Assembly: GCA_020848615.1 (NCBI GenBank)
Contig: JADLHW010000007.1
Span: 1 to 42,150 of the forward strand
Length of the DNA: 42,150 nt
Reading direction: 5' to 3'
From: Thermoleophilia bacterium
GTDB taxonomy: Bacteria > Actinomycetota > Thermoleophilia > Miltoncostaeales > Miltoncostaeaceae
Shown here: piece by piece, positions 10,757-20,645 of the stretch
Numbering within the stretch: position 1 is the first letter of the stretch
Layout: each line of letters begins with the position of its first letter
Program-made: the position numbers and the translations under genes
The notes under the pieces: generated by a model
What the model was told of the DNA's origin: nothing
The model's database searches: none
The model's input: only the letters and a program-made list of their open reading frames with translations

Positions 10757-10917
10757 ACCGATCGTAGACCCACGGGGGCGGCCGCCGGCCGCCTCAAACC
10801 GGCCCAGCGGGCCACCCGTGCGAGATCGGTGACGAGCCCGCCTCACCCGGACCGCCTCGGCGGGACCGGTGTCGTCGGCCCGCACCGTCCGCCCGGAGCG
10901 AGTCGAGAAGGAGGTGA
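10757..10917 (+). promoter_or_regulatory. probable L10-type autoregulatory leader of rplJ-rplL
   Basis: The 178-nt gap before rplJ contains a nested structure: ACCGATC (10757-10763) pairs with GATCGGT (10824-10830), CACGGG (10771-10776) pairs with CCCGTG (10815-10820), and a GC-rich inner hairpin lies between. The asymmetric internal loop (GTAGACC facing CGA) is where L10 leaders usually have a kink-turn. In many bacteria the L10-(L7/L12) complex binds this leader to repress rplJL. The element ends at a perfect Shine-Dalgarno AAGGAGGTGA (10908-10917). The pairing is seen in the sequence; the assignment to the L10 leader class is inference from position and shape. Confidence 0.55.
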
Positions 10918-10923
10918 GGCAAA

Positions 10924-11448
10924 CTGAACCGGGACCAGAAGGCGGCCGCGATCGCCGAGATCGAGCAGAAGCTCGGCTCGACGGACACCGTCCTCGCCGC
11001 GGACTTCCGCGGGCTCACGGTGCAGCAGATCTCCGACCTGCGCGGTGCGCTGCGCGAGGCGGAGGCCGAGCTGAGCGTCGTGAAGAACACCCTCGCCCGG
11101 CGTGCCGCGAACAGCACGGGCAGGGAGGCGCTGCTCCCGTACCTCACCGGCCCGTCGGGCCTGGTGTGGGTGAACGGGGACCCCGCGGTCGCCGCGAAGG
11201 CGCTGTCGCAGTTCGCATCGAAGCACCAGGCGCTCGAGCTGAAGGGCGGCATGCTGGAGGGGCGCGACCTGCCGGTCGAGAGCCTCACCCGGCTGGCCTC
11301 CCTCCCCTCGCGGGAGCAGCTCATCGCCCAGCTGGCCGGGGGCGTCGCCGCCCCGCTGCGCGGCCTCGCGGGCGGCCTGAACGCACTCATCGCCGGGCTG
11401 GCGCGCTCGCTCGCCGCGGTGCACGACCAGAAGGCGGCCGAGGGCTGA
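10924..11448 (+). CDS. rplJ: 50S ribosomal protein L10, with apparent CTG start
   Basis: 174 aa, normal for L10. NRDQKAAAIAEI at the N-terminus and VLAADFRGLTVQQISDLRGALREA match the family from its first residues; the C-terminal helix that binds L7/L12 dimers ends in AAVHDQKAAEG. The frame has a stop at 10915-10917 and contains no ATG, GTG or TTG before the conserved start, so CTG at 10924 is the only plausible initiation codon. It sits 9 nt after GGAGG of a perfect Shine-Dalgarno. A downstream GTG at 11020 would remove about 32 conserved residues and is rejected. L10 anchors the L7/L12 stalk; rplL follows at 44 nt. Confidence 0.9.
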   Translation: MNRDQKAAAIAEIEQKLGSTDTVLAADFRGLTVQQISDLRGALREAEAELSVVKNTLARRAANSTGREALLPYLTGPSGLVWVNGDPAVAAKALSQFASKHQALELKGGMLEGRDLPVESLTRLASLPSREQLIAQLAGGVAAPLRGLAGGLNALIAGLARSLAAVHDQKAAEG

Positions 11449-11492: not shown

Positions 11493-11873
11493 ATGGCTAC
11501 CACTGAGGAGTGGATCGAGGAGCTCAAGAGCATCTCCGTGCTGGAGCTCGCCGAGCGCATCAAGGCGATCGAGGAGACCTTCGGCGTGAGCGCCGCGGCC
11601 CCGGTCGCGGTCGCCGCGGCCCCGGCCGGCGGTGGCGACGGCGGCGGTGCCGCCGAGGAGCAGACCGCGTTCACGGTGAACCTCGACGGCGCCGGCGACA
11701 AGAAGATCCAGGTGATCAAGGTCGTCCGCGCGGTCACCGGCCTGGGCCTCAAGGAGGCGAAGGACCTGGTGGACGGCGCCCCCGCCGTCGTCAAGGAGGG
11801 CATCCCGAAGGAGGAGGCCGAGCAGATCAAGGCGCAGCTCGAGGAGAGCGGCGCGGTCGTCTCGGTCAAGTAG
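11493..11873 (+). CDS. rplL: 50S ribosomal protein L7/L12
   Basis: 126 aa, normal length. An N-terminal dimerisation helix ([18 protein letters not shown]), an Ala/Gly-rich hinge (residues about 35-55) and the C-terminal factor-binding domain with [20 protein letters not shown] and [20 protein letters not shown] are all present. Several dimers bind L10 and recruit EF-G and EF-Tu. ATG is preceded by TGAGGAG. A strong hairpin follows directly (11882-11915), so transcription into the protease genes is probably attenuated. Confidence 0.97.
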
Positions 11874-11881
11874 TCCGCGCG

Positions 11882-11915
11882 CTCCGGGTCCCCGGCCGTC
11901 GCCGGGGACCCGGAG
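11882..11915 (+). terminator. strong hairpin after rplL
   Basis: A perfect 15-bp stem: CTCCGGGTCCCCGGC (11882-11896) pairs with GCCGGGGACCCGGAG (11901-11915) around a 4-nt loop. There is no T tract, as is common in GC-rich genomes. It separates rplL from the protease genes. Confidence 0.7.
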
Positions 11916-11937
11916 TGTGGACCACCCGGCCGCTCGT

Positions 11938-13425
11938 ATGGTGAAGTCCCCGCTCGTGAGGCGGTTCGGGCTCCCGGGGGCCATGGTGGCGGCGGTCGCC
12001 CTGGGGGCGGCCCCCGCGGTGCATGCCGGCGTCCTGTCGCAGGGCGTGTTCCGGATGGGCGCCGACGTGCTGTGGAGCTCCGGGGACACCGGCGCCGGCC
12101 AGGTCGTCGCGATCGTCGACGAGGGCTTCGGCGGGCTGGACGCCTCGATCGCCGCCGGTGAGATGCCGCCGCGTGAGGTGCTCACCATGCGCAGCTTCGA
12201 CGCCCGCCACGGCCTGGACGGGCGCAACCGGCTGGGCCTGCCCACCGAGCACGGCACCCGGATGGCGGAGATCGTCCACGACGTGGCGCCGGACGCCCGG
12301 CTGGTGCTCGTGAACTACAACACGGTCGCGGAGTTCGCCCTGGCCGCGGAATGGGTCACGGCGCAGGGCATCCCGGTGGTGTCCCACTCGAACTCGTTCC
12401 TGGACGGGCCGTTCGACGGGTCGGGGCCGGCCGCGGGGGCGGTGGACCGCGCCGCCGCGGGCGGGGTGCTGTGGGTGAACTCCTCCGGCAACTTCGCGAT
12501 GCGCCACTGGTCGGGCACGGCCCCGGCCGGGACACCGGTGCCCGTCGGGATCACGACCGTCGGCGGAACGTGGATCCAGCTGCACCTGTCGTGGCGGGAC
12601 CCGTCGGCGTCCGCCTCGTTCACCGTCGAGCACCGCGGCCCGGACGGCACCTGGACGGCGGTGGCGGCCTCCGGGCCGAGCGGCCCCGTGTCCGCGGCGG
12701 TCGCGGCGTTCCCGGCGGCCGACGACGGCGCGTATCGCGCGGTGGTGCGGCAGGACGCCGGGACCCCGCAGCTCCTGGAGCTCGTGTCGGGGTCCGCGAA
12801 CCTGGAGGGCGCGGTGGCGGACGGCAGCGTCCTCACGCCCGGTGACGCCCGCGGATCGCTCACGGTGGGGGCGGTGCCGTGGCAGAGCGGGACCCTCGCG
12901 CCGTACTCGTCGCGCGGGCCCACCGAGGACGGCCGCGCGAAGCCGGACATCTCGGGTCCCACGTACGTCACCGCCAACCCGGGGTACCCGGGGACGGCCG
13001 GCACGTCCGCCGCCACCGCCCACGTGGCGGGCGCCGCGGTGCTGCTGCGCGCCCGGCGCGAGGCCGCCGGGCTGCCCGCGGCGGCCGGTGACATCCGGCA
13101 GGCCCTGGTCGCTGGCGCCCTGGACCTGGGCCCCGCGGGCCCCGACACCGGGTACGGTGCGGGCATGGTGCGGCTGGATCTGAGCGCCCCGCGGCTCGAG
13201 GCCCGGTACGTCCCCTCCCGTTCGGTGCTGCGCGTGCGCGCGACCGACGACGGCACGCTCGACGCCGTGGAGGTGCGCGTGCCGGGGGCCAGGACCCGGG
13301 TGCTGCGGCGGGCCGTCGTGAACCTGCGGCTGCGGCCCGCCCGCGCGACGCGCGTGACCGTGGTGGCACGTGACCTGGCGGGCAACAGGACCACCCGCGT
13401 GGTGCGCATCCGGGGTGCCCGGTGA
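11938..13425 (+). CDS. secreted subtilisin-like serine protease (S8) without a prodomain
   Basis: About 495 aa from ATG 11938. A signal peptide (about residues 1-30, ending APAVHA-G) is followed almost at once by the protease core: D61 (VAIVDEGF), H105 (TEHGTRMAEI), oxyanion N185 (NSSGNFAM) and nucleophile S357 (AGTSAATAHVAG). About 110 residues of beta-rich sequence (residues about 205-310) are inserted between the Asn and Ser motifs, and a small C-terminal beta domain ends the protein. No I9-type prodomain separates signal and core. An alternative GTG start at 11956 would sit 13 nt after TATGGT and still give a signal peptide. It overlaps the second protease by 4 nt (GTGA) and is clearly its paralogue. 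Confidence 0.88.
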   Translation: MVKSPLVRRFGLPGAMVAAVALGAAPAVHAGVLSQGVFRMGADVLWSSGDTGAGQVVAIVDEGFGGLDASIAAGEMPPREVLTMRSFDARHGLDGRNRLGLPTEHGTRMAEIVHDVAPDARLVLVNYNTVAEFALAAEWVTAQGIPVVSHSNSFLDGPFDGSGPAAGAVDRAAAGGVLWVNSSGNFAMRHWSGTAPAGTPVPVGITTVGGTWIQLHLSWRDPSASASFTVEHRGPDGTWTAVAASGPSGPVSAAVAAFPAADDGAYRAVVRQDAGTPQLLELVSGSANLEGAVADGSVLTPGDARGSLTVGAVPWQSGTLAPYSSRGPTEDGRAKPDISGPTYVTANPGYPGTAGTSAATAHVAGAAVLLRARREAAGLPAAAGDIRQALVAGALDLGPAGPDTGYGAGMVRLDLSAPRLEARYVPSRSVLRVRATDDGTLDAVEVRVPGARTRVLRRAVVNLRLRPARATRVTVVARDLAGNRTTRVVRIRGAR

Positions 13426-15503
13426 GGCGCCGCGCGCTGCTGGCCGCCCTCGCGATCGCCGTCTGCGTCCCGCCCGTGGCCGGGGCGGCGGAGGGTCCGG
13501 TGGCGGTGACGGTGCAGGCCCGGCCGGGGCAGGCCGGGCAGGTGCGGGACGCCCTGGGCCGCGGCGCCCTGCGCGTGCAGCGCCTGCGGGGACGCACCCT
13601 GCAGGTGGTGGCCGCGCCGGACCGCGTGGCGGCGCTGCGCCGCCTGCCGGGGGTGGCGGCCGCCGGGGTCGCGACCAGCGCCTTCGAGGACGAGACGGCG
13701 GTCACCAGCGAGGGCCTGTTCCGCACCGGGGCCGCGGCGGTGGCGCCCGCGGCGAACGGCGGCGAGGGCCTGGTCATCGCCATCCTGGACCTGGGCTTCG
13801 GGAACAACATCGAGACGCTGCGGGCGAAGAACGAGCTGCCGCCGGCGGAGCGCACCGAGACGCGGTCGTTCGACACCGTGAACGGCCTGGCCGGCCGCAA
13901 CGCGTACGGCAACGCCACGAACCACGGGGAGCTCGTCACCCAGACGGTGTTCGACTACGCCCCGAGGGCCACGTTCGTGCTCGTGAACTACCGCACGCCC
14001 GAGGACTTCGTGTCGGCCGGCGACTTCCTCGTCGCCCGGCGCCCGGACATCGTCGTCCACTCGAACAACTTCATCGAGGGGCCGTTCGACGGCACCGGCG
14101 CCGCCGCGCAGGCGGTCGACCGGGCGGCGGCCGCCGGCGTGCTGTGGTTCAACAGCGCCGGGAACTACGCCCAGCGCCACTGGGCGGGGCCGTGGACCGA
14201 CGCCGACGGCGACGACCTCCTGGACTTCGCCGGCGCCGAGCGCGGCCTGTTCTACCAGGGTGCAGGCAAGCCCGTCACGTTCGCGGTGTCATGGGTGCAG
14301 CGGCCCTCCGGCCCGCGCACCGACCTGGACATCGCCCTGGAGCGCCGCAACGACGACGGCAGCTGGACCGCCGTGGCCACCAGCACGGACCGGCAGCCCG
14401 CCGGGGCGGCGCCCGCGGAGCGCATCACCGGGTACCTGCCCCCGTCCGACGGCTTCTTCCGGCTGGCGGTGCGGCTGGTGGACGGCCCTCCCCCCGTGGG
14501 GGACGTGACCGTCTTCTCACGCGAGGTGGACGTCCCGCTGGTGCTCGGCGGGTCCGCGGTGTCGAGCGTGCCGACGCCGGGTGACGCCGCTGGCGGGATC
14601 TCCGTGGGAGCGGTGGACTGGCGCGGCGACCGGCTGAAGAGCTACTCGTCGCACGGCCCCACCGCGGACCTGCGCCGGAAGCCGGACCTGGTGGCCCCCA
14701 CCGACACCAGCCTCGCGGGCCCGAACGGCCCGCGCCTGGTGGGCGGCACCTCCAACGCCGCCCCGAACGCCGCCGGCGCGGCCGCCGTGATCATCGCCAG
14801 CATGCGCGCCGGGGGCGTGAACCCGGCGGCGGCCGACGTCCGCGCCCAGCTGCTGCGGGACGCCCTGGACCTGGGCGACCCGGGCCCCGACGACTCGTTC
14901 GGCGCGGGGCGCGCACGCGTGGACCTGGTGCCGCCCGTGGTCACGGGCCTCCGCCCCGCCGAGGGCTCCGCCGTGCGCGGCCCCGTGACCGTCGCCGTGA
15001 AGGCCGCGGACCCGTCCCGCGTGGCCCGCCTCACCCTCTGGACCGGCGAGCGCCAGCTCGCCCAGGTCCTGGCACGCGACGGCCTGGGGGTGCGCCTCGA
15101 CACGCGCCGGTTCCCCGACGGGGACCTGTCGTTCGCCGTGGACTCCCGCGACTGGCCGGGCAACACCAGCCGCCGGGAGTGGCACGTGCGGGTCGACAAC
15201 ACCCCGCCGGTCCTGTCGGTGCGTCGCGTGTTCGCGCTCCCGCGTCCGAAGGGCCGGGCCCCGGACCCCAGGCGCAGGCGCCAGGCGTTCGTCGTGATCT
15301 CGGCGCGCGACACCGGCGCCCCCCGGATGACGCTCACCCTGTCCGCCGCGGGGATGAAGCCCAGGACCGTCGCGCTGCGCGCCGTCGCGAACCGCCGCAT
15401 CGCCGTGGGGAAGCTGCTTCCGGGCCGGAACCTCATCCGCCTGGATCTCCGCGACGCCGCCGGAAACGCACGAATCAAAAATCAGGTCCTTCGGTTCCGG
15501 TAA
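13422..15503 (+). CDS. secreted subtilisin-like serine protease (S8) with prodomain and C-terminal beta domains
   Basis: 693 aa, GTG start overlapping the preceding TGA. The signal peptide (residues about 1-23, PPVAGA-A) precedes an apparent I9-like prodomain (residues about 25-90: VTVQARPGQAGQV...RLPGVAAA). The catalytic core follows: D123 (IAILDLGF), H168 (TNHGELVTQ), N248 (NSAGNYAQ) and S444 (GGTSNAAPNAAG). As in its neighbour, a beta-rich insertion lies between N248 and S444, here longer. Residues about 510-693 form one or two Ig-like beta domains with Arg-rich loops (PVVTGLRPAEGSAV, VRVDNTPPVLS). It shares VLVNY, EGPFDG and AVDRAAAAGVLW-type motifs with the upstream protease, so the pair arose by duplication. 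TAAGGT at 15501-15506 overlaps the stop and may be a promoter for the next gene. Confidence 0.9.
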   Translation: MRRRALLAALAIAVCVPPVAGAAEGPVAVTVQARPGQAGQVRDALGRGALRVQRLRGRTLQVVAAPDRVAALRRLPGVAAAGVATSAFEDETAVTSEGLFRTGAAAVAPAANGGEGLVIAILDLGFGNNIETLRAKNELPPAERTETRSFDTVNGLAGRNAYGNATNHGELVTQTVFDYAPRATFVLVNYRTPEDFVSAGDFLVARRPDIVVHSNNFIEGPFDGTGAAAQAVDRAAAAGVLWFNSAGNYAQRHWAGPWTDADGDDLLDFAGAERGLFYQGAGKPVTFAVSWVQRPSGPRTDLDIALERRNDDGSWTAVATSTDRQPAGAAPAERITGYLPPSDGFFRLAVRLVDGPPPVGDVTVFSREVDVPLVLGGSAVSSVPTPGDAAGGISVGAVDWRGDRLKSYSSHGPTADLRRKPDLVAPTDTSLAGPNGPRLVGGTSNAAPNAAGAAAVIIASMRAGGVNPAAADVRAQLLRDALDLGDPGPDDSFGAGRARVDLVPPVVTGLRPAEGSAVRGPVTVAVKAADPSRVARLTLWTGERQLAQVLARDGLGVRLDTRRFPDGDLSFAVDSRDWPGNTSRREWHVRVDNTPPVLSVRRVFALPRPKGRAPDPRRRRQAFVVISARDTGAPRMTLTLSAAGMKPRTVALRAVANRRIAVGKLLPGRNLIRLDLRDAAGNARIKNQVLRFR

Positions 15504-15602: not shown

Positions 15603-15815
15603 ATGCCGCTCGACCAGCCCCTCAAGAGTGCGCTTCGGGACAAGGTCTCGACCGCGAACAAGAGCAACGTCGACGACGTCGCCGCGCAGGTGCAGGAGGC
15701 GCTCGCCACCCTTCCCGAGGACGACAAGGACCACGCCCGCCTCAAGGGCTGGCTCGAGGACCTCGCCGTCGTCAAGGGCGGCCAGGTGATCGGCCGGTTC
15801 GGGGACACGGTCTGA
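15603..15815 (+). CDS. small hypothetical protein, 70 aa
   Basis: A soluble protein of mixed charge, mostly helical, running from PLDQPLKSALRDKV to VVKGGQVIGRFGDTV. No domain is recognised. GGAGG (15589-15593) lies 9 nt before the ATG, TAAGGT (15501-15506) is a possible -10 box about 97 nt upstream, and a 19-bp hairpin follows at 15822, so it looks like an independently transcribed gene. The 99-nt interval 15504-15602 holds its leader and nothing else I recognise. Confidence 0.65.
   Translation: MPLDQPLKSALRDKVSTANKSNVDDVAAQVQEALATLPEDDKDHARLKGWLEDLAVVKGGQVIGRFGDTV

Positions 15816-16892: not shown

Positions 16893-20645
<3,753 letters not shown>

Follow-up and report, generated by a model that had tools for sequence, protein, structure and literature searches.

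A clade of secreted S8 proteases without a prodomain, translationally coupled to a prodomain-bearing sister in a family of Thermoleophilia

The dependence of subtilases on a prodomain is a textbook example of protein folding under kinetic control. The window analyzed here, a 42,150-nucleotide stretch of DNA from a Thermoleophilia bacterium, raises the question of how a secreted subtilase might do without such help: it encodes two S8 proteases in tandem, P1 and P2, of which the original prediction assigned a prodomain only to the second, proposing that the first either folds independently or is assisted in trans by its partner.

Both open reading frames were confirmed. P1 (495 amino acids; 11938..13425, plus strand) and P2 (693 amino acids; 13422..15503, plus strand) are secreted S8 proteases by sequence, scoring 81.9 and 65 bits, respectively, against the Peptidase_S8 profile (PF00082; curated cutoff, 21.8 bits), and they overlap, as predicted, by the tetranucleotide GTGA (13422..13425, plus strand), which contains the start of P2 and the stop of P1. 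The complete triads proposed for the two proteins, D61/H105/S357 in P1 and D123/H168/S444 in P2, were recovered together with the oxyanion asparagines N185 and N248, and the beta-rich insertion that had been noted in both could be refined to a jellyroll-like one (about residues 190 to 285 in P1), with CspB as the top Foldseek match. Whereas P1 leads from a signal peptide into the catalytic core, P2 consists of a signal peptide, a prodomain, the core, and C-terminal Ig-like domains. The latter are present as predicted, but a C-terminal addition is not exclusive to P2, since P1 carries a small beta domain of its own (about residues 415 to 491). Around the catalytic residues, P2 reads HGE, not the usual HGT, from H168 onward in all rows that reach the site, and its catalytic serine motif is GTSN in nearly all rows; in P1, the proline after GTSxx is mostly missing. 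A separate substitution was seen in distant relatives from the Hymenobacter/Spirosoma group (L062, L070, L081, and L083), which feature a glutamate in the catalytic His column (DEGRAMAEIVHD). As read from the alignment, this suggests a switch toward an S53-like catalytic set within one related group.

The pair is located in the gap between rplL (11493..11873, plus strand), which ends 64 bases 5' of P1, and rpoB (16893..20645, plus strand), the downstream border. The space between rplL and P1 holds a hairpin (11879..11918, plus strand; -46.2 kcal/mol, z = -4.1), a possible terminator, and long hairpins follow rplL in relatives across family f1 (42 genomes examined; Thermoleophilia, probably Miltoncostaeales). 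These hairpins, including that of the window, are very strong, differ in sequence, and are in some cases followed by a T-rich stretch. Given so strong a hairpin between rplL and P1, the protease pair may be its own transcript. On the other side of the pair, between P2 and rpoB, lies the family-specific orfS (15603..15815, plus strand), encoding a small protein of 70 amino acids. Of 149 genomes, the 29 that encode it all belong to family f1, and it occupies the rplL-rpoB gap even where the proteases are missing. Another feature of this region concerns rplJ (L10), for which positions 10907-10926 of the window contain no in-frame ATG, GTG, or TTG; the gene seems to start at CTG (10924) after a strong ribosome-binding site (GGAGGTGA), and in a related genome (G001) leucine is found at its start as well.

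That P1 passes from its signal peptide straight into the core is borne out by an AlphaFold2 model (mean pLDDT, 84.5), in which residues 1 to 44 are of low confidence and the core begins at about residue 45, and by structural alignment, which matches residues 1 to 275 of mature subtilisin with residues 35 to 416 of P1. No prodomain appears in this single-chain prediction. The putative signal peptidase site, read by eye as lying between AVHA and GV, would leave residues 31 to 34 (12028..12039, plus strand) ahead of residue 35, which corresponds to residue 1 of subtilisin. Since the fold starts at residue 35 and rplL ends so close upstream, there is no space for a P1 prodomain, and none was present in any of the 32 P1 N termini read (31 rows from relatives plus the window). 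A miscalled start that conceals a prodomain was also considered and ruled out, given the mere 64 bases to rplL in the window and the agreement of the N termini in 32 of 32 cases.

In P2, by contrast, the distance from signal peptide to core is about 60 residues greater than in P1, and it accommodates the prodomain (about residues 25 to 86; 13494..13679, plus strand). The AlphaFold2 model (mean pLDDT, 83.5) places a strand at residues 27 to 33, a helix at 38 to 47, strands at 52 to 56 and 59 to 64, a helix at 66 to 72, and a strand at 78 to 83. This beta-alpha-beta-beta-alpha-beta order supports the predicted I9-like prodomain (residues 27 to 83), and the same make-up of four strands and two helices is described for subtilisin prodomains (PMC4865297). 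The Pfam I9 profile itself was detected in neither P1 nor P2 at an E value of ≤1, nor did a further profile search find it in P2. When the P2 prodomain was compared with PDB profiles, the two best matches, both weak (E values of 0.09 and 0.67), were short subtilisin-like protease chains, while P2 prodomains matched those of single-copy relatives with an hhalign E value of 2.8e-7. The CspB_prodomain profile was listed for none of 12 P2 prodomains and gave weak matches in two of nine single-copy proteases (best E value, 0.015).

The P1-P2 pair is a conserved feature of family f1. P1 is present in 32 of the 42 genomes, 30 of which also contain P2; in the other two (G111 and G011), the contigs end inside P1, so that no genome clearly has P1 alone. 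Of the two observations that would have told against the original prediction, a recognizable prodomain in P1 and frequent P1 without P2, neither was made. P2 was detected by search in 34 genomes, and one more (G161) was added from a P2 start and half a prodomain at a contig end. Five genomes hold P2 only: in G164, G125, and G022 the contigs begin inside P2, in G005 neither rplL nor rpoB was matched, and in G016 a P2 fragment without a preceding P1 is found, with no P1 in the approximately 670 bases after rplL. Neither protease was found in 5 of the 42 genomes (G002, G013, G020, G023, and G007). Adjacent pairs overlap by 4 nucleotides in 24 of 26 cases (among them the window, G080, and G161) and by 22 nucleotides in the other two. 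P1 follows rplL immediately in 28 of 32 genomes (exceptions, G006, G017, G008, and, where a contig starts, G024), and P2 is located away from P1 in G003, G014, and G006. The catalytic D, H, N, and S are intact in 31 of 32 P1 and 31 of 34 P2 proteins, the remainder being truncated by contig ends.

The prodomain of P2 is kept in 30 of the 31 readable N termini (only half of it being visible in G161). The exception is G080 (L144 8334-8530), whose P2 has lost the prodomain in frame, so that the signal peptide is directly followed by the linker, with the 4-nucleotide overlap retained. Its catalytic residues are intact and its branch, at 0.18, is not long. No displaced prodomain was found elsewhere in this genome, the best E value (0.05) being on a par with chance hits in relatives. 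As the deletion is seen in a single metagenome assembly, it could be an assembly error.

To place the prodomain loss in time, we turn to the tree, computed by a quick method and drawn with a midpoint root from 31 P1, 32 P2, and 18 single-copy rows, in which P1, P2, and the single-copy proteases form one clade each (SH-aLRT values of 99, 99, and 100). L188 (G033) was left out of all alignments, and G100_P1, G016_P2, G022_P2, and G316_single were left out of the tree. A prodomain-type N-terminal region is found in the single-copy proteases of families f6 and f3 as well as in more distant Actinomycetota relatives and in Bacteroidota relatives. Because the prodomains of P2 and of the single-copy proteases are related, the absence in P1 is derived, and parsimony over these sequences points to an ancestral prodomain and to one loss after the duplication, on the stem leading to P1. 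We consider the anatomy, the pairing, and the single prodomain loss near certain. A single-copy protease from Acidimicrobiaceae (L057 7638-8001) may have only a short segment between its possible signal peptide and the core, perhaps another shortened or missing prodomain. No rpl or rpo genes lie near the outgroup single-copy proteases in the genomic stretches examined.

In our preferred account, a secreted S8 protease that was present as a single copy, had a prodomain, and carried a jellyroll insertion of the Csp kind was duplicated in the rplL-rpoB gap of the family f1 ancestor. The first copy, P1, dropped its prodomain on its stem branch, and P2 remained a canonical zymogen. The cut by signal peptidase would then directly free the N terminus of P1 at the mature position, so that P1 would be exported at mature length, without a zymogen stage. 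The two proteins would be cotranslated via the 4-nucleotide overlap and probably work as a team. Of this account, the single duplication and the loss are shown, as are the anatomy, the conserved pairing, and the missing loop discussed below, while activity, unaided folding, and teamwork are inferred.

How, then, might P1 fold? The nine residues 75 to 83 of subtilisin are absent here. The segment from H105 to P118 of P1 (HGTRMAEIVHDVAP; 12250..12291, plus strand) is nine residues shorter than in subtilisin, and the spacing from the catalytic His to the AP motif is 11 in 31 of 31 P1, 31 of 32 P2 (the remaining one reads VP at the same position), and 19 of 19 single-copy proteins. Engineered 266-residue subtilisins that lack residues 75 to 83 align with P1 without a gap at this site and outscore their 275-residue parents. 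Work on subtilisin reports that the enzyme folds very slowly without its prodomain, that deletion of residues 75 to 83 (the calcium site A loop) greatly accelerates folding, and that the mutant Sbt-70 folds independently of the prodomain (PMC4865297). In addition, CspB is described as stiffened by its inserted jellyroll (PMC3567191), and by analogy the insertion may stiffen the cores of P1 and P2 likewise. From the family-wide absence of the calcium-site loop and a core that the jellyroll may stiffen, we infer that P1 folds without an obligatory prodomain, the most probable account, to which we nevertheless give only even chances. P2 and the single-copy proteases lack the loop yet keep the prodomain, so that loop loss would be permissive but not sufficient. 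The prodomain loss in the P2 of G080, with its catalytic residues intact, leans toward unaided folding as well. On the other hand, P1 is never demonstrably apart from P2, which would fit dependence on the latter; CspB, the nearest solved fold, is reported to require its prodomain in cis or in trans (PMC3567191); and a propeptide-less KP-43 paralogue from Bergeyella is described as inactive on expression (PMC11982257). Between the two mechanisms of the original prediction, the family-wide loop absence and the G080 case thus tip the evidence toward independent folding without settling the choice.

The alternative is that the P2 prodomain acts in trans as a foldase, perhaps also as an inhibitor, shared by both enzymes, its supply being secured by cotranslation. 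We regard this as possible but rather unlikely. It would explain why 30 of the 32 genomes with P1 also have P2 (the other two being cut inside P1), including the three with a relocated P2, and why the short overlap is retained in 24 of 26 adjacent pairs; moreover, the prodomains of subtilisin (PMC4865297) and CspB (PMC3567191) are reported to act in trans. However, P1 and P2 share about 39% of their core residues (28 pairs), the G080 pair has no prodomain at all, and noncognate prodomains are said to have rescued CspB only marginally (PMC3567191). Subtilisin is bound by its prodomain at two parallel helices on its surface (PMC4865297). A comparison of this surface in our proteins had a mixed outcome that favors neither mechanism. 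We take the helices in question to be residues 104-116 and 133-144 of subtilisin; their expected equivalents are residues 130-142 and 164-174 of P1. In the second helix, the majority residues of P1 and P2 are identical at 82% of the sites, versus 27% with the single-copy proteases, but agreement in the first is limited to 31% of the sites, and P1 varies more there than P2 does. The more elaborate version, with one foldase for two enzymes, in which the P2 prodomain would be both a trans folding catalyst and a timed inhibitor of P1 and the synthesis of the two would be matched by the 4-nucleotide overlap, seems to us slightly less probable again. If true, one prodomain would control the activation of two secreted proteases.

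Help for P1 could instead come from an unrelated factor, such as an ORF2-like external chaperone or general secretion chaperones, for which the Aeromonas protease ASP offers a precedent, as it is reported to require ORF2, encoded just downstream (PMC5638518). We judge this improbable: orfS, the sole other conserved neighbor, lacks a signal peptide on inspection by eye and persists in G002 and G013, whose rplL-rpoB gaps are free of proteases, and no further candidate was found near the pair. For the same reasons, namely, its retention in protease-free rplL-rpoB gaps and its lack of a signal peptide by eye, orfS itself was ruled out as a detached prodomain or chaperone. Little more than a slim chance, in our view, is left for P1 as an inactive or nonenzymatic partner (decoy, inhibitor, or scaffold) that retained its catalytic residues by chance. 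Such a role would suit the alanine that replaces the usual proline after the catalytic serine motif in most rows (GTSAATA), and it has a parallel in the CspA part of Clostridium difficile CspBA, described as lacking an intact triad (PMC3567191), but all four catalytic residues are kept in 31 of the 31 P1 rows that reach them. Unaided folding of P1 remains our preferred reading.

The layout had originally been called unrecognized, which is fair for the exact pair: the passages found in the open-licence literature contain no description of a propeptide-less subtilase translationally coupled to a prodomain-bearing sister, nor of this pair in Thermoleophilia or Miltoncostaea. Its elements, however, have known counterparts in ASP/ORF2 and in the tandem jellyroll S8 proteases of the Csp type. 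Like P1 and P2, the clostridial Csp germination proteases (CspB, CspBA-CspC) have a jellyroll-interrupted S8 core (best match of P1, 4i0w; Foldseek E value, 6.7e-16; also VIA) and occur as multiple paralogues per operon. In contrast to P1 and P2, which have signal peptides, the Csps are spore proteins whose prodomain stays bound; P1 lacks a prodomain, the catalytic residues of both P1 and P2 are intact, and the gene setting is unrelated. Neither protein reached the cutoff of the NCBIfam model germ_prot_CspBA (22.7 and 18.8 bits versus 1250). ASP of Aeromonas sobria resembles P1 as a secreted subtilase without a propeptide and with a partner gene downstream (PMC5638518, PMC9549277), but it belongs to the kexin subfamily and ORF2 is a dedicated chaperone, whereas the downstream partner of P1 is a protease with its own prodomain. 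A 2022 survey, as far as its available text goes, describes the propeptide as a chaperone in subtilases except ASP and lists AspA as one of two without a propeptide (PMC9549277). The calcium-independent subtilisin engineered by deletion of residues 75 to 83 lacks the same nine residues and is described as fast folding, with some versions prodomain free (PMC4865297); it is laboratory made, while here the loop is naturally absent across a family that mostly keeps its prodomains. The KP-43 peptidases SpBcA, SpBcB, and SpBcC of Bergeyella cardium likewise form a paralogue set in which one member, SpBcC, has no propeptide, but they belong to another subfamily, SpBcC was inactive and lacks the predicted N-terminal sequence, and the consulted part of that report describes no coupled pair (PMC11982257).

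Taken together, family f1 contains a whole clade of secreted subtilases without a prodomain, beside a sister that keeps one, and the folding-barrier loop is naturally absent throughout this family. The P1-P2 pair is a natural test of how subtilases fold: comparing P1 with P2 would directly reveal what releases a subtilase from the need for a prodomain and could open a way to more easily produced proteases.
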